This document shows positions 2 to 7,939 of a stretch of 7,939 nt of DNA, piece by piece. The notes below the pieces were generated by a model, which saw nothing but the letters and a program-made list of their open reading frames with translations, was not told the DNA's origin and did not search any database. Every line of letters starts with the position of its first letter. Positions within the stretch are counted from its first letter, which is position 1. Position numbers and translations under genes: made by a program. The DNA comes from an uncultured Gemmatimonadales bacterium (lineage in GTDB: Bacteria > Gemmatimonadota > Gemmatimonadetes > JACCXV01 > JAHWKZ01). Location of the stretch: contig CAMYLR010000024.1 in assembly GCA_947259315.1 (NCBI GenBank), positions 143,225 to 151,163 of the forward strand, read 5' to 3'.

Positions 2-748
2 ACAGACCGTCCCTACAGCTGGTCGCCCGACGGCTCAAAGATCGCGTTCTCAACCGACCGCGACGGAAACTTCGAGGTCTACGTCATGGACGCCGACGGC
101 TCGAACCCGATGAACCTCACCAATAATGCGGCTTTTGACGGTGAGCCGAGTTGGTCGCCTTTTGCTTTGGATAGCGATGGCGACGGTCTTTCGGACGACG
201 ACGAGATCGCGATAGGTACCGATCCGTTCGATCCCGACACCGACGATGATGGCCTTACTGACGGCGAAGAAGTCGCTCTCGGAACCGACCCGCTCGATCC
301 GGACAGCGATGGCGATGGCCTCACTGACGGGGAAGAGGTCGCTCTCGGGACGGACCCGCTCGATCCCGACACCGACGATGACGGGCTGGACGACGGCGAA
401 GAAGTTGACCTCGGCACCGACCCGCTCGATCCCGACAGCGACGACGACGGGATCGTCGACGGATCGGACCCCGACGTGCTATCCGAAGCGCTCGACTCGA
501 TCCCGGACTCTGCTTTCAAGAGCGGCGACGGTGGTCACCGCAATGCGATGCAGAGCATCCTGGCCGACATCGAGCAGGCGATCGCCGACGGCGACACGGC
601 CGAGGCGATCCGCAAGCTTCAAAACCTGCGACGTAGGGTAGACGGCTGCGGCCCGACAGCCGAAAGAAATGACTGGATCCTCGACTGTCCGAGCCAGCTC
701 ATGGTACGGGATCTGATCGATACGATGATTACCGGCCTGGGCGGTTGA
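2..748 (+). CDS. Secreted TolB-like propeller / thrombospondin type 3 repeat protein, 3' part
   Basis: The reading frame is open from the left edge, so the 5' end is missing; 248 residues are visible. Residues 1-55 hold PD40/TolB-type beta-propeller blades ([12 protein letters not shown], then [17 protein letters not shown], then EPSWSPF). The ATG at 86 lies inside a blade and is not the start. Residues 57-158 are thrombospondin type 3-like calcium repeats (DxDxDG.xDGEE...GTDPLDPD). Residues 159-248 form a probably helical tail with two cysteines (VDGCG, ILDC) ending in [14 protein letters not shown]; similar tails occur at the end of secreted proteins (FIMAH-like), but I cannot assign it firmly. 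In known families TSP3 repeats bind Ca2+ and stiffen extracellular proteins, and PD40 propellers mediate protein contacts. Export is inferred, because the signal peptide lies outside the window. A rho-independent terminator follows 64 bp after the stop. Its promoter and any riboswitch are off the window. Confidence 0.88.
170..475 (+). repeat. 54-bp coding tandem repeats (TSP3 calcium loops)
   Basis: Four to five units of 18 codons with pattern [22 protein letters not shown]. They are conserved at DNA level as well as protein level (for example gacccgctcgatcc recurs with period 54), which suggests recent unit duplication or homogenisation. Alternating DTDDDG and DSDGDG cores give the Asp ladder expected for Ca2+ binding. 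Confidence 0.85.
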
Positions 749-812: not shown

Positions 813-842
813 AAGGGGCGGTCCCTGAGGCCGCCCCTTTTT
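813..842 (+). terminator. Rho-independent terminator of the TSP3 gene
   Basis: A 9-bp stem AAGGGGCGG / CCGCCCCTT encloses a 9-nt loop and runs into five Ts (838-842). It lies 64 bp after the stop codon. The stem and part of the loop (GGGGCGGTCC...CCGCCCC) recur after the lipoprotein gene at 2690, so the terminator appears to be part of the repeated cassette design. Confidence 0.85.
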
Positions 843-865: not shown

Positions 866-1038
866 GTGCTAGTAAGAGTGCTAGTTCAGTTCCGTCTTTT
901 TGCCGTATCAGGGTGCGAAGCGCTCCGCAAATAGGCGGAAAACTCCGCGGACTTACGGCTGATTGCCGAAAAAGAGCTGTTTAGCCCCTGCTTGACATGC
1001 AGGAGGTCACTGGTTCGAATCCAGTGCCGCCCACCATG
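866..1038 (+). repeat. 173-bp cassette-end block, copy 1 (ends in tRNA-Val 3' half)
   Basis: Aligns without any indel to 2745-2917, with about 18 mismatches by hand count (about 90% identity). Parts in order: two direct TGCTAGT heptamers 12 bp apart (867-873, 879-885); a hairpin-capable inverted repeat TCCGC-AAATAG-GCGGA; a TCCGCGGA palindrome; a more diverged stretch (961-986); then the 3' half of a tRNA. Conservation is highest in the tRNA part (one mismatch in about 52 bp). This fits an attachment site: an element-derived arm joined to a displaced tRNA 3' end. No integrase gene is adjacent. Confidence 0.85.
987..1036 (+). pseudogene. tRNA-Val(GAC) 3' half, copy 1
   Basis: Contains an intact anticodon arm (CCTGC, loop TTGACAT with anticodon GAC at 994-996, GCAGG), variable loop, T arm (ACTGG TTCGAAT CCAGT), the 3' acceptor strand GCCGCCC, discriminator A and encoded CCA. 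The 5' acceptor strand (GGGCGGY expected) and D arm are absent: the 26 bases upstream do not resemble a tRNA. It therefore cannot make a functional tRNA and looks like the fragment left when an element integrates at the anticodon loop or 3' end of a tRNA gene. Confidence 0.88.
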
Positions 1039-1117
1039 CACAGCAACAAACAAAACGCTTCCTGCCTATACACGTTCTTGTGTAAGTTCTAAAACTTTGG
1101 TTGTACCGTGTCTGTTT

Positions 1118-1207
1118 CAGATCAGTTACACCGCGCGTAAGAGTCTCGCCTACGCGACGACGGGTTTTCCCCCACAGACAGCCACGTCTTGGTCGCACTA
1201 CAGTTGA
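1118..1207 (+). repeat. Conserved pre-riboswitch leader, copy A
   Basis: Homologous to 2927-3023 and 6805-6916. The riboswitch-proximal 52 bp (1171-1222) match 6880-6931 with three mismatches. Copy A lacks the roughly 20-bp segment around ACAAACAAACGAGTACAC seen in the other two. A weak sigma70-like pair (CAGACA 1175-1180, 18-bp spacer, TACAGT 1199-1204) is shared with copy C and would start transcription next to riboswitch helix P1; this promoter call is tentative. The bases 1039-1117, between the tRNA remnant and this leader, show nothing I can name. Confidence 0.6.
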
Positions 1208-1326
1208 GGTAATAACCCCGACAAGGGCAAACCCGGCGAAAGCCGGAGACGCAAAGCCACGGGTCCTCGCTCCCTCCGCGACGCCGTACCGACGCCACGA
1301 AGGTTTCAAGACCGCCGAGCTACCGA
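1206..1326 (+). promoter_or_regulatory. c-di-GMP-I (GEMM-I) riboswitch, copy A
   Basis: Carries the two hallmark GEMM-I strings in order: AGGGCAAACC (1224-1233) and GACGCAAAGCCACGGG (1248-1263). Between them is a P2 hairpin CCGGC-GAAA-GCCGG (1233-1246) with the conserved GNRA tetraloop that docks into P3. The 3' part CCGCCGAGCTACCG (1312-1325) matches the closing segment of the class, and its TACC (1321-1324) can pair with GGTA (1208-1211) to form P1. P3 seems longer than usual, making the domain about 120 nt. It lies 62 nt upstream of the lipoprotein ATG, in the same orientation, so c-di-GMP control of that gene is expected. GGTA recurs at 1362-1365 just before the Shine-Dalgarno and could compete for the P1 3' strand, which hints at the switching mechanism. 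Confidence 0.86.
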
Positions 1327-1387
1327 AGGCACCGTCTCAGACCTCACCTCGAAAGAAAGCAGGTAACCCCCCACCAAGGAGCAGCCA

Positions 1388-2659
1388 ATGCGACACCTCC
1401 TTTTGTCTCCCTTTGTTGCCGCACTGTTCGTGCTCGGCTGCAATGAAACGCCGACGCAGCCGATCGATACTGACCTTCCGCGCGCGGTGTCGCCGAGTGC
1501 TCTAGGCAGCTTCACAACGTCGGCCGATTTCGATGGCGCGAGTGATCCCTTCTTCGTCCGAACGACCCCCTTTTCGTTTCATCCGACGATAGGGCCTGAT
1601 CCTATAGTGGCCGGTCCCGATGGGTTTTCTGATGGGCGGTACCTGCGCCTCTTCAACTTTTCATTTCTCCACGCGGTCAACGTTGGGTTCGACGAGGCCA
1701 CCGCGGACCCGGTCATCGCAGCAACGGTCGAATTCGATTTTCGGCTGACGTGCAGAGGCAATCGCACCGGGTTCGGCGGCGGCGGCTGTGGCGACGGCTT
1801 TCAGATGTCGCTCCTGCCGACCTCAGACATGGGTCCGACGGGACCGATTCCCGCCGTATTAACCGAACGGCAGGTGCTGGACGACGACCCACCCCATGAA
1901 GGGATTATCCCTCTGACCAGTGGCCTCGTCATCTTGACGTTCAATACGTTCAACAACGGCTCTGGGGAGACCAACAACAACGTCGAGATACAAACGCGGG
2001 GCAGTGGTCCTCCACAGAAATTCCCCCTCGATCCGATGGTCTTCGACATCGCGACCGGCCTGGGCCAGGCCCGGGGCGAGTTCCAGCACGCGCGCCTCGA
2101 TCTGCAACTGACACCGCCCCGGTCGGTGACGCTTGTTCTCACCGACGCACTTGGCGCGAGCATCACGCCGTTCTCCATACCGCTCGATGCCGGTGCGCAG
2201 CCATACGAGATGCGGCTGGCATTCGGCGGTCGAAACGGACAGGCAAGCAATGGAATCGATCTCGACAACATCGTCGCCACGTTCATCACCGATGTTCTCA
2301 TCGAGGTCGATGTCGACATCAAACCGGGCAGCGATCCGAACTCGATAAACCCCAAGAGCATGGGTGTCGTGCCGGTGGCGATCCTCGGGGGCGATGTGTT
2401 TGACGTGACCGATGTGGATGTGACGACGCTCGCGTTTGGGCCAGCTGGCGCCGCGCCTAGCCATGACCTGTCGAATCCGGCCACCTATGCGGACCATCTT
2501 CAGGACGTGAACAGTGATGGCTTCACGGACTTGGTCTCCCACTACCGTCAGAAGGAAACCGGGCTGGCGGTCGGCGATACCGAGGCGTGCATCACAGGGG
2601 AGAGTTTTGGCGGTGCTCCGATCGAGGGTTGTGACGCCGTCAGCGTGCTAGACAAGTAA
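1388..2659 (+). CDS. Lipoprotein with lectin-like middle and calcium-loop C-terminal domain
   Basis: 423 residues. The start is supported by AAGGAG (1376-1381) six bases upstream and by a lipoprotein signal peptide with lipobox VLGC, giving lipidated Cys18. Residues about 40-300 look like an all-beta, concanavalin A/lectin-like sandwich (VEFDFRL at 114-120, GDGFQMSLLP at 135-144, TLVLTDALG, MRLAFGGRNG, then DLDNIVATF near 291-299); this fold call is inference. Residues 307-420 match a recurring secreted C-terminal domain: VDIKPGSDPNSINP, VVPVAILG, DVNSDGFTDLVSHY (a Ca2+-loop-like DxNxDG), GDTEACITG and IEGCD. The paired Cys401 and Cys415 may form a disulfide. No catalytic motif is visible, so a surface binding or adhesion role is the most that can be inferred. 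The gene is monocistronic, between the copy A riboswitch and its own terminator. Confidence 0.88.
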   Translation: MRHLLLSPFVAALFVLGCNETPTQPIDTDLPRAVSPSALGSFTTSADFDGASDPFFVRTTPFSFHPTIGPDPIVAGPDGFSDGRYLRLFNFSFLHAVNVGFDEATADPVIAATVEFDFRLTCRGNRTGFGGGGCGDGFQMSLLPTSDMGPTGPIPAVLTERQVLDDDPPHEGIIPLTSGLVILTFNTFNNGSGETNNNVEIQTRGSGPPQKFPLDPMVFDIATGLGQARGEFQHARLDLQLTPPRSVTLVLTDALGASITPFSIPLDAGAQPYEMRLAFGGRNGQASNGIDLDNIVATFITDVLIEVDVDIKPGSDPNSINPKSMGVVPVAILGGDVFDVTDVDVTTLAFGPAGAAPSHDLSNPATYADHLQDVNSDGFTDLVSHYRQKETGLAVGDTEACITGESFGGAPIEGCDAVSVLDK

Positions 2660-2689
2660 CACGTCGCCACGGTTCGGAGTGAAGATCAC

Positions 2690-2719
2690 GGGGCGGTCCA
2701 TCAGGGCCGCCCCTGTTTT
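2690..2719 (+). terminator. Rho-independent terminator of the lipoprotein gene
   Basis: A stem GGGGCGG (2690-2696) / CCGCCCC (2707-2713) is followed by TGTTTT, 31 bp after the stop. The stem and loop edge are nearly the same as the terminator at 813-842, although the genes are unrelated. Confidence 0.78.
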
Positions 2720-2744
2720 GTGCCGTGGTGTTGCCCTCAGAGGT

Positions 2745-2917
2745 GCGCTAGTAAGTGTGCTAGTTCAGTTCCGTCATTTTGCCATACTAGGGTGCGAAGC
2801 GGTCCGCAAATAGGCGGAAAACTCCACGGATTTACGGCATAATGACGAAAAAGCGCGGTTTAACGCCTGCTTGACACGCAGGAGGTCACTGGTTCGAATC
2901 CAGTGCCGCCCACCATG
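2745..2917 (+). repeat. 173-bp cassette-end block, copy 2 (ends in tRNA-Val 3' half)
   Basis: Second copy of 866-1038 at an exact offset of 1879 bp with no indels. It keeps the GCTAGT direct repeats, the TCCGC-AAATAG-GCGGA inverted repeat and the tRNA end; the TCCGCGGA palindrome is altered to TCCACGGA. Most differences cluster in the 20-25 bp just before the tRNA fragment. Together with copy 1 it delimits the lipoprotein cassette. Confidence 0.85.
2866..2915 (+). pseudogene. tRNA-Val(GAC) 3' half, copy 2
   Basis: Same 50 nt as copy 1 except for one anticodon-loop base: CCTGC TTGACAC GCAGG, anticodon GAC at 2873-2875, T arm, GCCGCCC, A, CCA. No D arm or 5' acceptor strand lies upstream. It is a displaced tRNA end rather than a gene. 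Confidence 0.88.
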
Positions 2918-2926
2918 TAACCATTG

Positions 2927-3023
2927 TAGACCAACCGTACCGTGCGTGGGGTTATCACCTACAGCAGAGCAGCTTTTCCCACACAAACAAACGAGTACAC
3001 TCCCACAGACACTCGTGTTGAGG
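2927..3023 (+). repeat. Conserved pre-riboswitch leader, copy B
   Basis: Shares GTGGGGTTATCACCTAC, ACAAACAAACGAGTACAC and CCCACAGACA with copy C (6805-6916). It diverges near its end (cactcgtgttgaggt in place of the TACAGT-containing stretch), so the tentative promoter element of copies A and C is not preserved. An inverted repeat GTGGG/CCCAC is kept between copies B and C. Confidence 0.55.
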
Positions 3024-3090
3024 TCGGAGTAGGCTTGAAGTAACAACCCCGACAAAGACAAACCCCCGAAAGACGGGGACCTCTGGGCCT
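3019..3090 (+). promoter_or_regulatory. Truncated, probably dead c-di-GMP-I riboswitch, copy B
   Basis: Aligns with the 5' half of the other two copies (TAACAACCCCGACAA, then CAAACCC, GAAAG, ACGGGGAC) but has lost what defines the class. AGGGCAAACC has become AAGACAAACC, GACGCAAAGC has become GACCTCTGGG, and P3 and the P1 3' strand are missing because the sequence joins directly to the ribosome binding site of the next gene. A 17-bp insertion also splits GAGGT from AACAACC. Ligand binding is not expected. The gene below it may have escaped c-di-GMP control. Confidence 0.7.
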
Positions 3091-3108: not shown

Positions 3109-3960
3109 ATGAAACCCCACAAAGAGCCGTATGACGCGCGGTGTTCGATTCCCGGTTCAACAAGATGGCTGGGTAGGCGTGGCATTCTTGGCAGTACTAC
3201 GATCGTGGCGCTGCTCATCCTGAATGCAGTCTCCCTCCCTCGACCGACGCTAGCACAAGAACCTGAGAACGAACGCTCGATAGTGAGCATGTTCCTTCAG
3301 ATAAAGCCTGTCCCCGATCAGGGAGGTGGCCTGCGGCTGGCGAACGTGATCCAAGACGATGTCCCAGAAGCACTGGGCGGTCTCATCTTGATGAAACCGT
3401 CGGCTAATGATCCAGATCTGGTCGCCGAGTATAGGCTCACCGTAATCCGCCACGGAAGTTGCTCCGTAGAAGCAAGCAAGCAGTTGCAGGATGACATCAC
3501 GCTCGCGTTGCGCGAGGCCGAGGTCGAAGGGGTTAGCCTCGCCCCGAGAGACTGTGTTGAGATCTCTACAGCGGAACAGGCTAGTGCCGACAAAGACGTC
3601 GATGAGTGGCTAACCCATCACTGGCGCCAGGAGGAGATCAGTCCTGAAGAGGAACCCATCGTGGTTGTTAGCACCGTGGCGACTTCGGGGGACCTGGTGC
3701 GACTTGCCGCCGCTGCCACCAATCCCGACGATGTGCACAGTGCACAAATCACGCACAAGGGTACGAGCGTTTCGCTTCAGTTGTTTATGGTCGGTTCCTG
3801 CAGTACCCATGTCGTGGAGGGAGTGCTGAGACAGATAAGGCGGGTCGCGCGGTGGATGGGTGTGGATGTCAGCTTCCTTGGGCCCGAGTGTCTGAAGGCC
3901 CTTGTTGAGATGGGACAGGACGAGGTGCGTCGATACGATCCCGACGAAATGCCCAAATAA
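3109..3960 (+). CDS. Secreted protein with two Cys-bounded repeat domains, function unknown
   Basis: 283 residues, not recognised as a named family. The start has GGAG (3098-3101) seven bases upstream. A long n-region with several Arg precedes a hydrophobic stretch (about 26-43) and a likely signal peptidase I site LA|Q (49/50). The mature protein has four cysteines in two matching pairs: GSC118...C149 and GSC231...C261. Each pair brackets a similar 30-residue beta-helix-beta-like segment after a hydrophobic strand (YRLTVIRHGSCS versus VSLQLFMVGSCS; GVSLAPRDC versus DVSFLGPEC). I read this as an internal duplication with one disulfide per copy. It is the first gene of a two-gene operon, 23 bp before the next start, and sits behind the truncated riboswitch. 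Periplasmic or extracellular location is inferred. Confidence 0.78.
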   Translation: MKPHKEPYDARCSIPGSTRWLGRRGILGSTTIVALLILNAVSLPRPTLAQEPENERSIVSMFLQIKPVPDQGGGLRLANVIQDDVPEALGGLILMKPSANDPDLVAEYRLTVIRHGSCSVEASKQLQDDITLALREAEVEGVSLAPRDCVEISTAEQASADKDVDEWLTHHWRQEEISPEEEPIVVVSTVATSGDLVRLAAAATNPDDVHSAQITHKGTSVSLQLFMVGSCSTHVVEGVLRQIRRVARWMGVDVSFLGPECLKALVEMGQDEVRRYDPDEMPK

Positions 3961-4991: not shown

Positions 4992-5003
4992 TGTAGCTAT
5001 TCC
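4985..5003 (+). repeat. Direct repeat flanking the K+ channel unit, left copy
   Basis: CCCACCATGTAGCTATTCC matches 6787-6805 at 18 of 19 positions. The pair encloses the channel gene at a spacing of 1802 bp. The stop codon and last Glu codon of the channel (minus strand) lie within this copy. Confidence 0.75.
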
Positions 5004-6700
5004 TCGAACTCCTCCGCGAAGCGCTTTCGCTGCTCGATCGTGCCGATCGCGATGAGAACGTCGCCCTCCTTGAACTCTGTCGCTGGGTCCGGATTCGTCA
5101 GCGTCTCACCAGCCCTTTCGATAGCCAGGACGTTGAGACCCGTGCGCGACCCGATTTCACTCGCCACGAGCGTCCCTCCGGACAAACTCGGTGGAACCGG
5201 AATCTTATACAGGTCGGCACTCTCACCTACGACGACCAGTCCTCGACCATCCAACAATGCGAAGATCGTCTGTGTGCCCAAAGTGGCATAGCTGAGTGCA
5301 AAGTCTGCACCGGCCCGGCTCACCGCCTCCACACTTCGGTCTTCGGTGATGCGGCTCACGATCCTGACGTCGGGGTTGGTGCGCCGGCAGTAAACAGCGA
5401 GGTAGATGTTCGTCGCATCTTCGTTGGTCGTGATCACAACGCTCGGAGCCGACTCGATCCCCGCCTCGGCCAGGATGGTCTTGTCTGCCGCATCGCCGAT
5501 AACCACTCGATCACACAGCTCCAGTAGCCGCGGCTCGAGACTGTCATCGCGCTCGACGACGTAGACGGGGATTTCGCGCGCCTTGAGTGAACGAGCCGCG
5601 GCTCGTCCGACGCGGCCGCCGCCGATGACAACTACGGGATTGAAGTTGGCCTGATGGATGAGAAGCAGACTCTCGAGATCGGTAAGCTGATCTTCGGTGC
5701 CGACAACCACGGGGATGCAGTAGTCGGTGAGAACGGTGTCCGCTTGCGCTGGTTCGAGCCGACCGCGTCTCCAGATACCGACGATGTTCAGCCCGGTCAC
5801 CTCACGCAGTCGCGTGCTGCGTATCGTTCTGCCGGCAAGGGGCGTCCCGTGCACCGTGAATTCGGCGATGCGCCGATCGCGGAACGATCCAACAACATGG
5901 ACTCGCGTTGACCCGGCAGCTACCCGTGCGGCCAGGTGTTCACCCAGCTGGCGCTTGAGATCGAGAACGTGGTTGCAGCCGCTCAACTCGAGGATGTGAA
6001 CCGCGTCGGGGCCCTCGGCGATCGCAACAATCGGGACCTCGGTCGAAACCTCACGGACGGTGATTGCGATATTGGTATCGATTCTGTCGTCGCGATTCGC
6101 GAGTATTAGTCGCGCTTGTTCCGCCCGTGCCGCCCGCACCGTTGCAGCGCTCATCAAGGAGCCGCTCATCACTGGGATGTCGTCCGAGTAGAGTTCCATA
6201 AGTCGTCCCGGGTCCGACTCGACCACGAACCACGGCACACCCCTGAGGTCGAGCTTTCGGCCTAGAGCGGCGGCAACGGCGTCGTAGCCGCACACGAGGA
6301 CGTGCCCACTTGTGCCTTCCGGCAGTTCGCGAGGGGCCCTTGTTCGGAGGCGAGCTTCGAGCCACGGAGCGTAGAAGAGGCTAATGAATGCGAACGGTAG
6401 TACGATCAGCAGCAGCATGATTCCCGAGACGAGAACGACTACACTGAAGAGGCGCCCGATATCGCTGTGAAAAGTGATGTCGCCAAAGCCGAGCGTGCTC
6501 ATCACGGTGAGGGTCCAGTAGAACCCAGTCAGCCACGAGTGACGTTCGCCCTCGATTGTCCACATGATCCAATGGAATCCGACCGTGTAGATCACGATCA
6601 CCACGGCAAGAAACGCCAGATACCTGAACAACCCTCGCAGGTTCTGCTGCATGCGGCGATCGCCGAGGAAGAAAGCCATCTGTGCCGGCAAGAACTTCAT
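4997..6700 (-). CDS. Potassium channel subunit with two tandem RCK (TrkA-N/TrkA-C) domains
   Basis: 567 residues starting at Met of MKFLPAQM, chosen because GGAG lies seven bases upstream; an in-frame ATG at 6772 would add 24 residues, lacks a clear ribosome site and lies almost against the tRNA remnant. TM1 is about 27-47, the pore helix 58-68, the K+ selectivity filter TLGFGD 69-74, and TM2 about 84-110. RCK1 is at about 133-345 with a degraded dinucleotide loop (VCGYDAVAAAL instead of GxGxxG). RCK2 is at about 354-555 with a canonical loop VIGGGRVG (358-365) and the ribose-binding acid Glu383. Two RCKs on one 2-TM subunit and this length resemble GsuK-type channels, which assemble as tetramers in the inner membrane with cytosolic gating rings responding to nucleotides or ions. 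It is the only minus-strand gene, has no riboswitch, and is convergent with the operon at 3109-4928. Confidence 0.93.
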   Translation of the reverse strand: MKFLPAQMAFFLGDRRMQQNLRGLFRYLAFLAVVIVIYTVGFHWIMWTIEGERHSWLTGFYWTLTVMSTLGFGDITFHSDIGRLFSVVVLVSGIMLLLIVLPFAFISLFYAPWLEARLRTRAPRELPEGTSGHVLVCGYDAVAAALGRKLDLRGVPWFVVESDPGRLMELYSDDIPVMSGSLMSAATVRAARAEQARLILANRDDRIDTNIAITVREVSTEVPIVAIAEGPDAVHILELSGCNHVLDLKRQLGEHLAARVAAGSTRVHVVGSFRDRRIAEFTVHGTPLAGRTIRSTRLREVTGLNIVGIWRRGRLEPAQADTVLTDYCIPVVVGTEDQLTDLESLLLIHQANFNPVVVIGGGRVGRAAARSLKAREIPVYVVERDDSLEPRLLELCDRVVIGDAADKTILAEAGIESAPSVVITTNEDATNIYLAVYCRRTNPDVRIVSRITEDRSVEAVSRAGADFALSYATLGTQTIFALLDGRGLVVVGESADLYKIPVPPSLSGGTLVASEIGSRTGLNVLAIERAGETLTNPDPATEFKEGDVLIAIGTIEQRKRFAEEFEE

Positions 6701-6780
6701 GCAGGGACTCCGACCGCTCCGAACCAAGTATCGATTGGATCGTCCATTACAGGGCTCAACGTTAGCGGCCACAGCGCTCG

Positions 6781-6805
6781 GTGTCGCCCACCATATAGCT
6801 ATTCC
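6781..6805 (+). repeat. tRNA acceptor remnant, copy 4, with right direct repeat
   Basis: GTGTCGCCCACCA resembles the last 13 bases of the tRNA-Val fragments (GTGCCGCCCACCA). It runs into TATAGCTATTCC, so 6787-6805 forms the right copy of the 19-bp direct repeat at 4985-5003. No T arm is left. It marks the junction between the K+ channel unit and the last riboswitch cassette. Confidence 0.65.
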
Positions 6806-6916
6806 AGATCAACTGCACAGTTTGTGGGGTTATCACCTACATCACAACGGCATTCCCCACACAAACAAACGAGTACACCCCCACAGACAGCCACGTCTTA
6901 GCCGCACTACAGTTGA
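6805..6916 (+). repeat. Conserved pre-riboswitch leader, copy C
   Basis: Most complete copy of the leader. It contains TGTGGGG...CCCCACA (a potential 7-bp stem), ACAAACAAACGAGTACAC, CCCACAGACAGCCACGTCTT (6880-6899) and GCACTACAGTTGAGGTAAC. The same tentative CAGACA (6884-6889) - 18 bp - TACAGT (6908-6913) promoter pair as in copy A is present. Confidence 0.6.
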
Positions 6917-7038
6917 GGTAACAACCCCGACAAGGGCAAACCCGCCGAAAGACGGGGACGCAAAGCTACGGATCCTCTCTTCCTCCGTGGCGCCAAAGGC
7001 CCAGCGTCACGAAGGCCGGAAGACCGCCGAGCTGCCGG
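6915..7038 (+). promoter_or_regulatory. c-di-GMP-I (GEMM-I) riboswitch, copy C
   Basis: Contains AGGGCAAACC (6933-6942), a P2 hairpin capped by GAAA (6947-6950, one internal mismatch), GACGCAAAGC (6957-6966), a P3 with CTACGGA / TCCGTGG pairing (6966-6986), and the closing segment CCGCCGAGCTGCC (7024-7036). P1 forms between GGTA (6917-6920) and TGCC (7033-7036). Compared with copy A this replaces a U-A pair by U-G, so P1 is maintained. It precedes the secreted protein start by about 50 nt in the same orientation. The class binds cyclic di-GMP and commonly controls surface, motility and matrix genes. Confidence 0.88.
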
Positions 7039-7084
7039 CGGAGCATCGCACCACAAGCAACGCGATTTCACCATCCGCGGAGGA
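7035..7084 (+). promoter_or_regulatory. Putative expression platform hiding the Shine-Dalgarno
   Basis: CCGGCGGA (7035-7042) can pair with TCCGCGG (7074-7080) with one bulged G, closing over an inner ATCGC / GCGAT helix (7045-7049 / 7062-7066). The outer helix takes up the first two Gs of the Shine-Dalgarno GGAGGA (7079-7084). It also reuses C7035-C7036, which belong to the P1 3' strand of the riboswitch, so P1 and this hairpin compete. If so, ligand-stabilised P1 would expose the ribosome site (ON switch). This is hand-folded only. Confidence 0.5.
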
Positions 7085-7087
7085 CCC

Positions 7088-7939
7088 ATGCGTCGATCCC
7101 AGTTGCGCGTCATCTCACCGAAGTTCTTGCTTGTTCCGTTGTTGTTGGCGGTCCTTCTCTTGCTCCCAATTGAGACCGCCGGGCAAACCTCAGTGCCGTC
7201 GGAGCTCCAGGATCAGATCGACGCGCTGTTCCCACCACCGGGCCTTCACAAGGCGGCATCTGTCCAGGTCAGGAACATCCTCCGGCAGGCGGGCCGCGGC
7301 GAGATCGCCGATGCCGAGCAGAAGCTTCTCGACTTCATCGAGTTCGGGATGGCGAAGCTGGACGGCGGTCAGCTGCTCGATCCCAACGGAGGCGCGGACC
7401 CGACGCCGGGTGATGCGTTCAGCGAGCTAGTTGTGGCGGTGTCGGAGACCGCCGGGCTGAGTGCCGTCCCCTTGAGCGAGGCGGCGTTGGGGGAGGACGG
7501 GGCGGTCGAGTTCGTGGACGAGAGTGGCGGCACGGTGGTGACCGAGACCGAGTTCGCTGGAGCCGACTTCCCGGCCGGGGCTCTGCCGGATCGGACGCTG
7601 GTCGTGATCGAGCCGTTGCCGGAGGTGGGGGTCCCGGCGGATCGCGACGGCCCGCTGCCCACGGCTCTCGACCAGTACCCGCTCTTCTACGAGATCTCCA
7701 CGTTCCCGGAGGTCCCCGAGCTGGGGGTGCCATCGATTGTGGGTGTGTGTGTGGTGGACCCGCCGGATCCGTTCGCGCCCGACCCAGAGATCGTCGATCG
7801 GCTGAGACTGGCGCATCCGGACCCTGACAACCCCGGGGGGATCGAGATCTTGCCGCTGGCCGATCCGTTCTTCCTCGATTGCGAGGCTGCTAGCACCGGG
7901 GGACTCGAGCTCGCCAGTTCCGGCCGGCTCGGCGGCGCG
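7088..7939 (+). CDS. Secreted ZU5/Ig-like surface protein, 3' end outside window
   Basis: 284 codons are visible and the frame is still open at the right edge. ATG follows GGAGGA by three bases. The signal peptide has basic MRRSQLR, a hydrophobic core (about 13-28) and a likely cleavage TAG|Q at 32/33. Residues 37-100 are probably helical (ELQDQIDALF, VRNILRQAGRGEIADAEQKL, ending LLDPNGG). Residues 146-178 have the ZU5-like strand pattern SGGTVV...FAGADFPAGALPD, followed by LDQYPLFYEIST, GVPSIVGVCV, RLRLAHPDPDNP and PFFLDC. Cys221 and Cys265 could pair. Proteins of this layout usually continue into Ig-like or adhesin domains, as far as I recall. It lies directly under the copy C riboswitch, so c-di-GMP-dependent expression is likely. 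An ORF in another frame (6651-7430) overlaps it and is a shadow. Confidence 0.86.
   Translation, partial: MRRSQLRVISPKFLLVPLLLAVLLLLPIETAGQTSVPSELQDQIDALFPPPGLHKAASVQVRNILRQAGRGEIADAEQKLLDFIEFGMAKLDGGQLLDPNGGADPTPGDAFSELVVAVSETAGLSAVPLSEAALGEDGAVEFVDESGGTVVTETEFAGADFPAGALPDRTLVVIEPLPEVGVPADRDGPLPTALDQYPLFYEISTFPEVPELGVPSIVGVCVVDPPDPFAPDPEIVDRLRLAHPDPDNPGGIEILPLADPFFLDCEAASTGGLELASSGRLGGA

Follow-up and report, generated by a model that had tools for sequence, protein, structure and literature searches.

Organisation of the tRNA-Val(GAC) locus

The stretch of DNA analysed here (the window; 7,939 nucleotides) is the end of contig C24 (positions 143225-151163) of a draft genome of 2.4 Mb that is 95.8% complete. 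It contains part of a tandem array that begins at an intact tRNA-Val(GAC) gene (C24:141215-141291), 2.9 kb upstream of a duplicated 173-bp block. Every unit of the array is closed by a displaced 3' piece of tRNA-Val, always in the orientation of the tRNA. The assembly is a single draft genome; the array continues beyond the end of the contig, and units 1-2 are separated from the window by a run of N. The features of the window, in its own numbering, are:

2..748, plus strand: unit 2 cargo (partial), PD40 beta-propeller and bacterial TSP3-repeat protein (Pfam PF07676, PF18884)
815..842, plus strand: unit 2 terminator-like hairpin, homologous to 2690-2717 (repeat search)
866..873, plus strand: candidate arm-type site 1 of unit 2, octamer GTGCTAGT (exact 8-mer pair)
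878..885, plus strand: candidate arm-type site 2 of unit 2, octamer GTGCTAGT (exact 8-mer pair)
866..986, plus strand: right-end arm region of unit 2, no special secondary structure
987..1036, plus strand: unit 2 border, displaced tRNA-Val(GAC) 3' piece, 50/50 nt from position 28, with anticodon stem CCTGC-TTGACAT-GCAGG
1037..1216, plus strand: unit 3 left end (leader; sequence comparison)
1217..1328, plus strand: unit 3 c-di-GMP-I-GGC riboswitch (RF03167, 63.9 bits)
1388..2659, plus strand: unit 3 cargo, predicted lipoprotein of 423 aa (ORF reading)
2690..2717, plus strand: unit 3 terminator-like hairpin (repeat search)
2745..2764, plus strand: arm-type octamer pair of unit 3, GCGCTAGT and GTGCTAGT (8-mer scan)
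2745..2865, plus strand: right-end arm region of unit 3 (repeat search, comparison)
about 2865-2915, plus strand: unit 3 border, displaced tRNA-Val(GAC) 3' piece, 50/51 from position 27, one mismatch
2916..3081, plus strand: unit 4 left end with a decayed GGC riboswitch at ~3043-3081 (repeat search, comparison)
3109..3960, plus strand: unit 4 first gene, predicted exported protein of 283 aa
3984..4928, plus strand: unit 4 second gene, predicted exported protein of 314 aa
4962..4991, plus strand: unit 4 border, displaced tRNA-Val 3' piece, 28/30 columns from position 49, T stem
4997..6772, minus strand: unit 5 cargo, two-TM potassium channel with TrkA-N/C, 591 aa (PF02254, PF02080, PF07885)
6781..6793, plus strand: unit 5 border, decayed tRNA-Val 3' acceptor end, 12/13 (repeat search)
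6794..6925, plus strand: unit 6 left end, homologous to those of units 2, 3 and 4 (comparison)
6926..7040, plus strand: unit 6 c-di-GMP-I-GGC riboswitch (RF03167, 68.5 bits)
7088..7939, plus strand: unit 6 cargo, predicted exported protein, cut by the contig end

The locus is a tandem array with tRNA pieces of the same orientation at all borders; the pieces start at the anticodon or T stem and decay along the array, and homologous ends enclose unrelated cargo. The first border, upstream of the window, consists of 30 nt from tRNA position 48 (L010:4032-4061). The identity of the pieces to the tRNA falls with distance from the gene, from 30/30 through 50/50, 50/51 and 28/30 to 12/13, an order that fits serial insertion at the tRNA with the newest unit beside it. 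The piece of unit 3 is also matched by the Rfam tRNA model (2853-2912, 30.9 bits).

The same scan was applied to all 42 tRNA genes that the Rfam tRNA model identified, with 430 kb of downstream sequence. Pieces of the 3' terminus were present only at tRNA-Val(GAC) and tRNA-Val(TAC); the remaining plus-strand matches were neighbouring tRNA genes or were short and tRNA-internal, and the scan gave no piece on the opposite strand. Downstream of tRNA-Val(TAC) on contig C11, a 21-nt piece of its own type is located at 1.2 kb, beyond a minus-strand methyltransferase-like gene, and a GAC-type piece at merely 0.13 kb; the two starts at this gene are at positions 57 and 49. A similar array with different cargo is present in a sister genus of the same family (genome G004), in which tRNA-Val(GAC) is followed by two 3' pieces, one of 25/25 from position 53 and a decayed one of 47 columns from position 31. 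Read by eye, its cargo comprises an adenylate-cyclase/TPR-like gene and then, between the two pieces, a dioxygenase-like and an ADP/ATP-translocase-like gene. Taken together, 8/8 clear borders begin within tRNA positions 27-33 or 48-57; the corresponding uniform chance of 1e-5 is illustrative only, as the ranges were picked post hoc.

The units measure 0.7-2.2 kb and have no integrase gene inside. Units 2, 3, 4 and 6 have a homologous left end in common that runs into a c-di-GMP-I-GGC aptamer. The aptamer is intact in units 3 and 6, both above the RF03167 gathering cut-off of 59 bits, degraded in unit 2 (27 bits) and down to one stem in unit 4. Within the genome, the unit 3 leader matches only C24:142080, 144264 and 150102, all inside the array, and a search of 60 relatives for the shared leader gave none. 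The cargo proteins of the units with this left end have apparent signal or lipoprotein starts by eye, including that of unit 2, whose gene begins upstream of the window (L010:4373) with a lipoprotein-like signal. The unit 3 protein of 423 aa has no Pfam or NCBIfam match, and blastp between cargo proteins of different units gave no match. By eye, unit 1 codes for a NicO-like transporter; its gene and the potassium-channel gene of unit 5 are on the minus strand, and neither unit has the shared left end.

Of 149 genomes sampled in the class, 56 have GGC riboswitches, and the present genome has further ones outside the array. The idea that they usually accompany tRNA pieces was dropped: among the loci read, neither the others in this genome nor 29 from other genomes are close to a tRNA gene or a tRNA 3' end. 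The GGC riboswitch is thus a device in common use here that was incorporated into these units.

The duplicated block as a proposed arm region with a tRNA core

An initial annotation of this DNA had described a gap-free duplication of about 90% identity, and this holds: 866-1038 and 2745-2917 are identical at 155/173 positions (18 substitutions, 89.6%, no gaps), and on both flanks identity drops abruptly to chance level. The 120 nt on the 5' side of the tRNA part agree at 104/120 positions (87%), whereas shuffled or reverse-strand comparisons within the window reach 47-51/120 at best. With gaps allowed, the right ends of units 2 and 3 are homologous over ~230 bp (85%), a stretch that reaches as far as the terminators (~815 and ~2690). 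These two full copies were the only ones returned by a search of the whole genome. Both end in a tRNA piece, so that a block recurring without its tRNA end, the case that would have spoken against a site, was not encountered. Sharing of the block outside this genome was searched for in 148 relatives and found in none; an exact 23-mer search of viral contigs for block or leader and an exact 19-mer search of named genomes gave no hit, and the phage database returned tRNA-like matches only.

Most of the internal elements that had been proposed were recovered. The direct repeats 12 bp apart are the octamers GTGCTAGT at 866-873 and 878-885, the first of which reads GCGCTAGT in copy 2, and the inverted repeat TCCGC-AAATAG-GCGGA is located at 924-939 and is identical in both copies. 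The palindrome stands for copy 1 (TCCGCGGA at 944-951) and fails for copy 2, where it is disrupted to TCCACGGA. The part described as a tRNA half, at 987-1036 and 2866-2915, is 50 nt long and corresponds to positions 28-77 of tRNA-Val(GAC). The octamers at 866 and 878 are the sole exact 8-mer pair with a 12-bp period in the whole window, and the GTGCTAGT pair pattern occurs in 1 of 394 genomes of the class, namely this one.

The further suggestion that the block is a folded single-strand substrate was not borne out. Folding of the two arm regions gave z-scores of -1.73 and -0.85 as DNA and of -1.26 and -1.30 as RNA, all inside the shuffled range. The unchanged 23-bp run over the inverted repeat is expected by chance (p 0.41), and since no substitution has occurred in 924-939 the repeat gives no covariation evidence, the signal by which its conservation was to be judged. 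The imperfect palindromic single-strand fold with conserved structure that characterises attC was not found, and attC-like folding was rejected on the fold z-scores together with the lack of covariation. A tRNA-like fold without D arm in the block was rejected as well, being at chance level.

The proposed layout of arm sites plus a core, on the other hand, agrees with several observations. Both full copies (2/2) carry the tRNA end, copies of the tRNA end alone are present at the other unit borders, tRNA identity begins at the anticodon or T stem, and GTGCTAGT pairs flank a tRNA 3' core near a viral P4-like integrase (see below). At the sequence level, these findings support the assignment of the 173-bp block as the end of a putative recombination site composed of an arm region and a tRNA core. 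The block is not the complete site that had been envisaged. No octamer with 0-1 mismatch was detected in the first 200 nt of any left end; what the window contains is therefore a single arm with its core, an attR-like half. Arm repeats beside a tRNA core, as in P4-like attachment sites, are thus present on the right side only and not on both sides of the core, and the units as now present could not be ordinary two-armed sites.

Octamer pairs at viral integrase loci

In the viral locus L139 (identical to L340), a gene whose product has Arm-DNA-bind_3 (PF13356) and Phage_integrase (PF00589) domains is accompanied by GTGCTAGT pairs at -249 and -29, and the tRNA 3' end GAGTCCGTGTGTCGGCACCA sits between the two pairs. 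In L156, GTGCTAGT pairs flank a tRNA 5' half, the core, next to an integrase gene. A XerD-based scan had given two loci; the link to the integrases came from an iterative scan, from reading L156 and L139 and from a Pfam scan. Relatives of the L139 integrase have altered pairs (GTGCCAGT, ATACCAGT, CTATACTA, ATACCACT or GTGCTA) near -250 and/or -30 of the gene, and in L340-L343 the pairs on the two sides are changed together. The coding control of these relatives contained 0 exact pairs. On this comparison, the octamer pairs near L139-type integrases look as arm-type sites should. Among P4-like integrase loci of the host's class, 4 of 30 sampled have an exact 8-mer pair at 12 bp upstream, and the sign thus belongs to a subfamily and not to all P4-like integrases.

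Two broader readings of these motifs were discarded. The GTGCTAGT pair is no general mark of phages, as the viral contigs contain at least 120 matches to the pair pattern, most of them unrelated chance occurrences inside coding sequence and none with a T-arm within 400 bp; two of the matches, in L139 and L156, were informative. CAAATAG, considered as a second motif common to the block, L139 and L156, is absent in the relatives and not enriched in the viral matches.

Recombinases of the host and proposed mechanism

The genome codes for two PF00589 proteins, one XerD-like and one XerC-like, and no others; in each of the five nearest genomes PF00589 matched once or twice. PF13356 was found neither in this genome nor in these five, and it is present in 32 of 119 sampled genomes of the class. 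The recombinases that score as XerC/XerD are far below the cut-offs for integron integrases, the genome contains no integron integrase, and a search for an integrase acting at this array found none. With no accessory integrase in the genome, the insertion enzyme either is absent, has been lost or was missed by the assembly, and the simplest reading is that it acted in trans.

We consider it likely that integrase-less units were put serially into the 3' end of tRNA-Val(GAC) by an integrase acting in trans, and that the 173-bp block represents their attR-like right end. Units 2 and 3 would have been inserted by a P4-like tyrosine integrase that binds the two GTGCTAGT octamers as arm sites and presumably cuts in the anticodon loop (TTGACAT between CCTGC and GCAGG). 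By analogy to tyrosine integrases, the 5-bp stem halves CCTGC/GCAGG of the anticodon arm may represent inverted core sites and the 7-nt TTGACAT the overlap. Both crossover places are sites at which tyrosine integrases recombine within tRNA genes. They imply two kinds of integrase, and a different enzyme that cuts in the T loop could have generated the borders of units 1 and 4. With every insertion the tRNA would be restored and the old 3' end shifted outward, so that the newest unit is adjacent to the tRNA. Since the units are only 0.7-2.2 kb long and contain no integrase, the enzyme was most likely supplied in trans by a visiting element; the units were probably gained with a borrowed enzyme.

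As the left end common to units 2, 3, 4 and 6 continues into the riboswitch, an inserted gene would bring its own c-di-GMP control. It is conceivable, although we hold this only tentatively and with some doubt, that the mobile unit consists of the riboswitch leader, one exported-protein gene, the terminator and the arm-plus-core end, and is moved by a helper integrase in trans. If the leader does belong to the unit, this is an example of a second-messenger riboswitch that moves as the standard control element of a gene cassette. Such cassettes would be akin to those of integrons, with regulation built in, and new genes would enter the genome already wired to c-di-GMP.

Alternative explanations

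The array could also be what is left of ordinary tRNA-Val islands that carried their own integrases, were inserted serially and later lost the integrase together with the left arm. The missing left arm pair and the decaying tRNA pieces speak for such a history, as does the right arm pair, which is of the type found beside integrase genes; in the viral model L139 the integrase adjoins the left arm, exactly the part that is missing here. Independent deletions would, however, need identical stops, for four units have the same left end to the riboswitch and two of them also the same right end, and the units are about equally small in two genera. The common ends around unrelated cargo favour cassettes and the absent left arm favours fossil islands, and we regard the latter as rather unlikely. 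The homologous left and right ends and the common riboswitch leaders would also be accounted for if a single founder unit had been duplicated in tandem, through unequal crossing-over between tRNA pieces, and its coding part had then been replaced. A simple duplication would copy the gene as well, yet the cargo is unrelated by blastp; units 1 and 5 have no shared ends and the borders are of two tRNA kinds, which renders this course of events improbable.

The remaining proposals assign the block or the tRNA pieces a different function. A function of the tRNA pieces at the RNA level, as tRNA-like elements for processing or stabilising the 3' ends of cassette mRNAs, is very unlikely: copy 2 scores 30.9 bits as a tRNA and a 7-mer could pair with the acceptor 3' strand at 6/7 positions, but in the window 13% of positions reach 6/7 and 56% reach 5/7 by chance, the shorter pieces cannot form the structure, and the pieces decay with distance. 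Movement of the units by the host XerC and XerD at a dif-like site, in the manner of pdif modules, would employ the sole tyrosine recombinases found in the genome. We give it very little credence, as the borders track tRNA stems with a 7-nt spacer and no dif-like sequence was noticed in an inspection made without the host dif as reference. A folded single-strand substrate like the attC of integrons is scarcely credible, even though the inverted repeat at 924-939 is retained in both copies: the block folds like its shuffles and has no compensatory change, the palindrome at 944-951 is broken in copy 2, and the genome is without an integron integrase.

Relation to known systems

The best reading of the array is that of integrase-less cassettes forming a new variant of the known tRNA-anchored islands. 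Additive islands of this kind have been described in several aquatic lineages. Those of Ca. Actinomarinales are flexible genomic islands that contain tRNA direct repeats (PMC7771536), and fGI-2 of Ca. Methylopumilus has repeats of the last 20 nt of tRNA-Lys (PMC10872708). The present array has the same small tRNA-anchored cassettes with tRNA-repeat ends and a content that varies between relatives. In addition, several units here share a riboswitch-leader left end and an arm-pair right end, neither of which is mentioned in the portions of the two papers cited here (PMC7771536, PMC10872708). In the literature searched, coverage of which was partial, no paper on riboswitch-bearing tRNA cassettes was found. 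The array supplies parts that bear on how integrase-less single-gene units enter genomes, namely an arm pair shared with the loci of one viral integrase family, two classes of crossover, and an order of decay that dates the insertions.

Islander distinguishes crossovers in the anticodon loop (A) and in the T loop/junction (J) of tRNA genes, and lists 125 tandems of two or more islands and 4 of three or more (PMC4383910). As in these tDNA islands, an intact tRNA gene is followed downstream by displaced 3' fragments of the same orientation that start at the anticodon loop or in the T loop/junction region, corresponding to crossover A or J. The array differs from them by its at least five borders and by units that have no integrase gene within and are mostly near or below the 2-kb limit (PMC4383910), for which reasons the Islander filters would reject them.

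With the P4-like attP of L139/L340 the block has in common the octamer pairs, the 12-bp period, the tRNA core and the identical octamer GTGCTAGT. Unlike that attP, it has the right arm pair only and no integrase gene, its tRNA part is longer (50 nt), and the distance from arm to core is ~101 bp compared with ~55 bp. Tycheposons, which the portions of the sources cited describe as elements of 4-200 kb with a tyrosine recombinase (PMC10872708, PMC11389934), also carry cargo beside a tRNA gene; the present units differ from that description in their length of 0.7-2.2 kb and in having no tyrosine recombinase. Integrons and CALINs, the latter being integrase-less integron arrays (PMC11389934), resemble the locus as arrays of single-gene cassettes with homologous sites and no nearby integrase. 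Here, in contrast, the site is a tRNA 3' end plus arm sites instead of a folded attC, insertion would occur at a tRNA gene, and some of the units have riboswitches of their own.

tRNA-like score of the second block

Positions 2853-2912 of the window, in the second 173-bp block at the right end of the lipoprotein unit (unit 3), exceed the cut-off of the Rfam tRNA model. They do so owing to a 7-mer upstream of the tRNA-Val(GAC) 3' piece that is able to pair with the acceptor strand (6/7), a match for which the chance level in the window is 13%. In the gene of unit 2, four 66-bp repeats (window 169-498) code for bacterial TSP3 calcium-binding repeats, and an N run (L010:5155-5225) lies within this gene immediately upstream of the window.

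Related loci

On contig C11 of the same genome (L317:578-1777, corresponding to C11:62053-63252), two 3' pieces lie behind tRNA-Val(TAC), one of the tRNA-Val(GAC) type at +0.13 kb and one of its own type at +1.2 kb, the two enclosing a methyltransferase-like gene. It looks as if a unit moved across from one tRNA-Val gene to the other, which accounts only partly for the order of events. The sister-genus genome G004 carries a second tRNA-Val(GAC) array (L094:10968-16232), with different single-gene units and decayed 3' pieces; past it lies a further predicted lipoprotein that starts with CNETPT, like that of unit 3.

In a viral family of P4-like integrases (L139:1624-1880 and L340-L353), the tRNA 3' core is flanked on both sides by octamer pairs with a period of exactly 12 bp. 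The octamer sequence varies among members, the two sides of each member agreeing, and the family is a good set for work on arm-site specificity.

Elsewhere, tandem c-di-GMP-I-GGC riboswitches, two or three together, and one divergent pair of them occur at these loci of G008, G080 and G000:

G008:C36:1984-2386
G008:C3:4760-5162
G080:C246:723-994
G000:C4:139-747

Others lie on short contigs or close to contig ends (L026 on C32, L027 on C30, L025 at the start of C4), where the assembly was possibly broken by repeats of a riboswitch-controlled exported-protein family.
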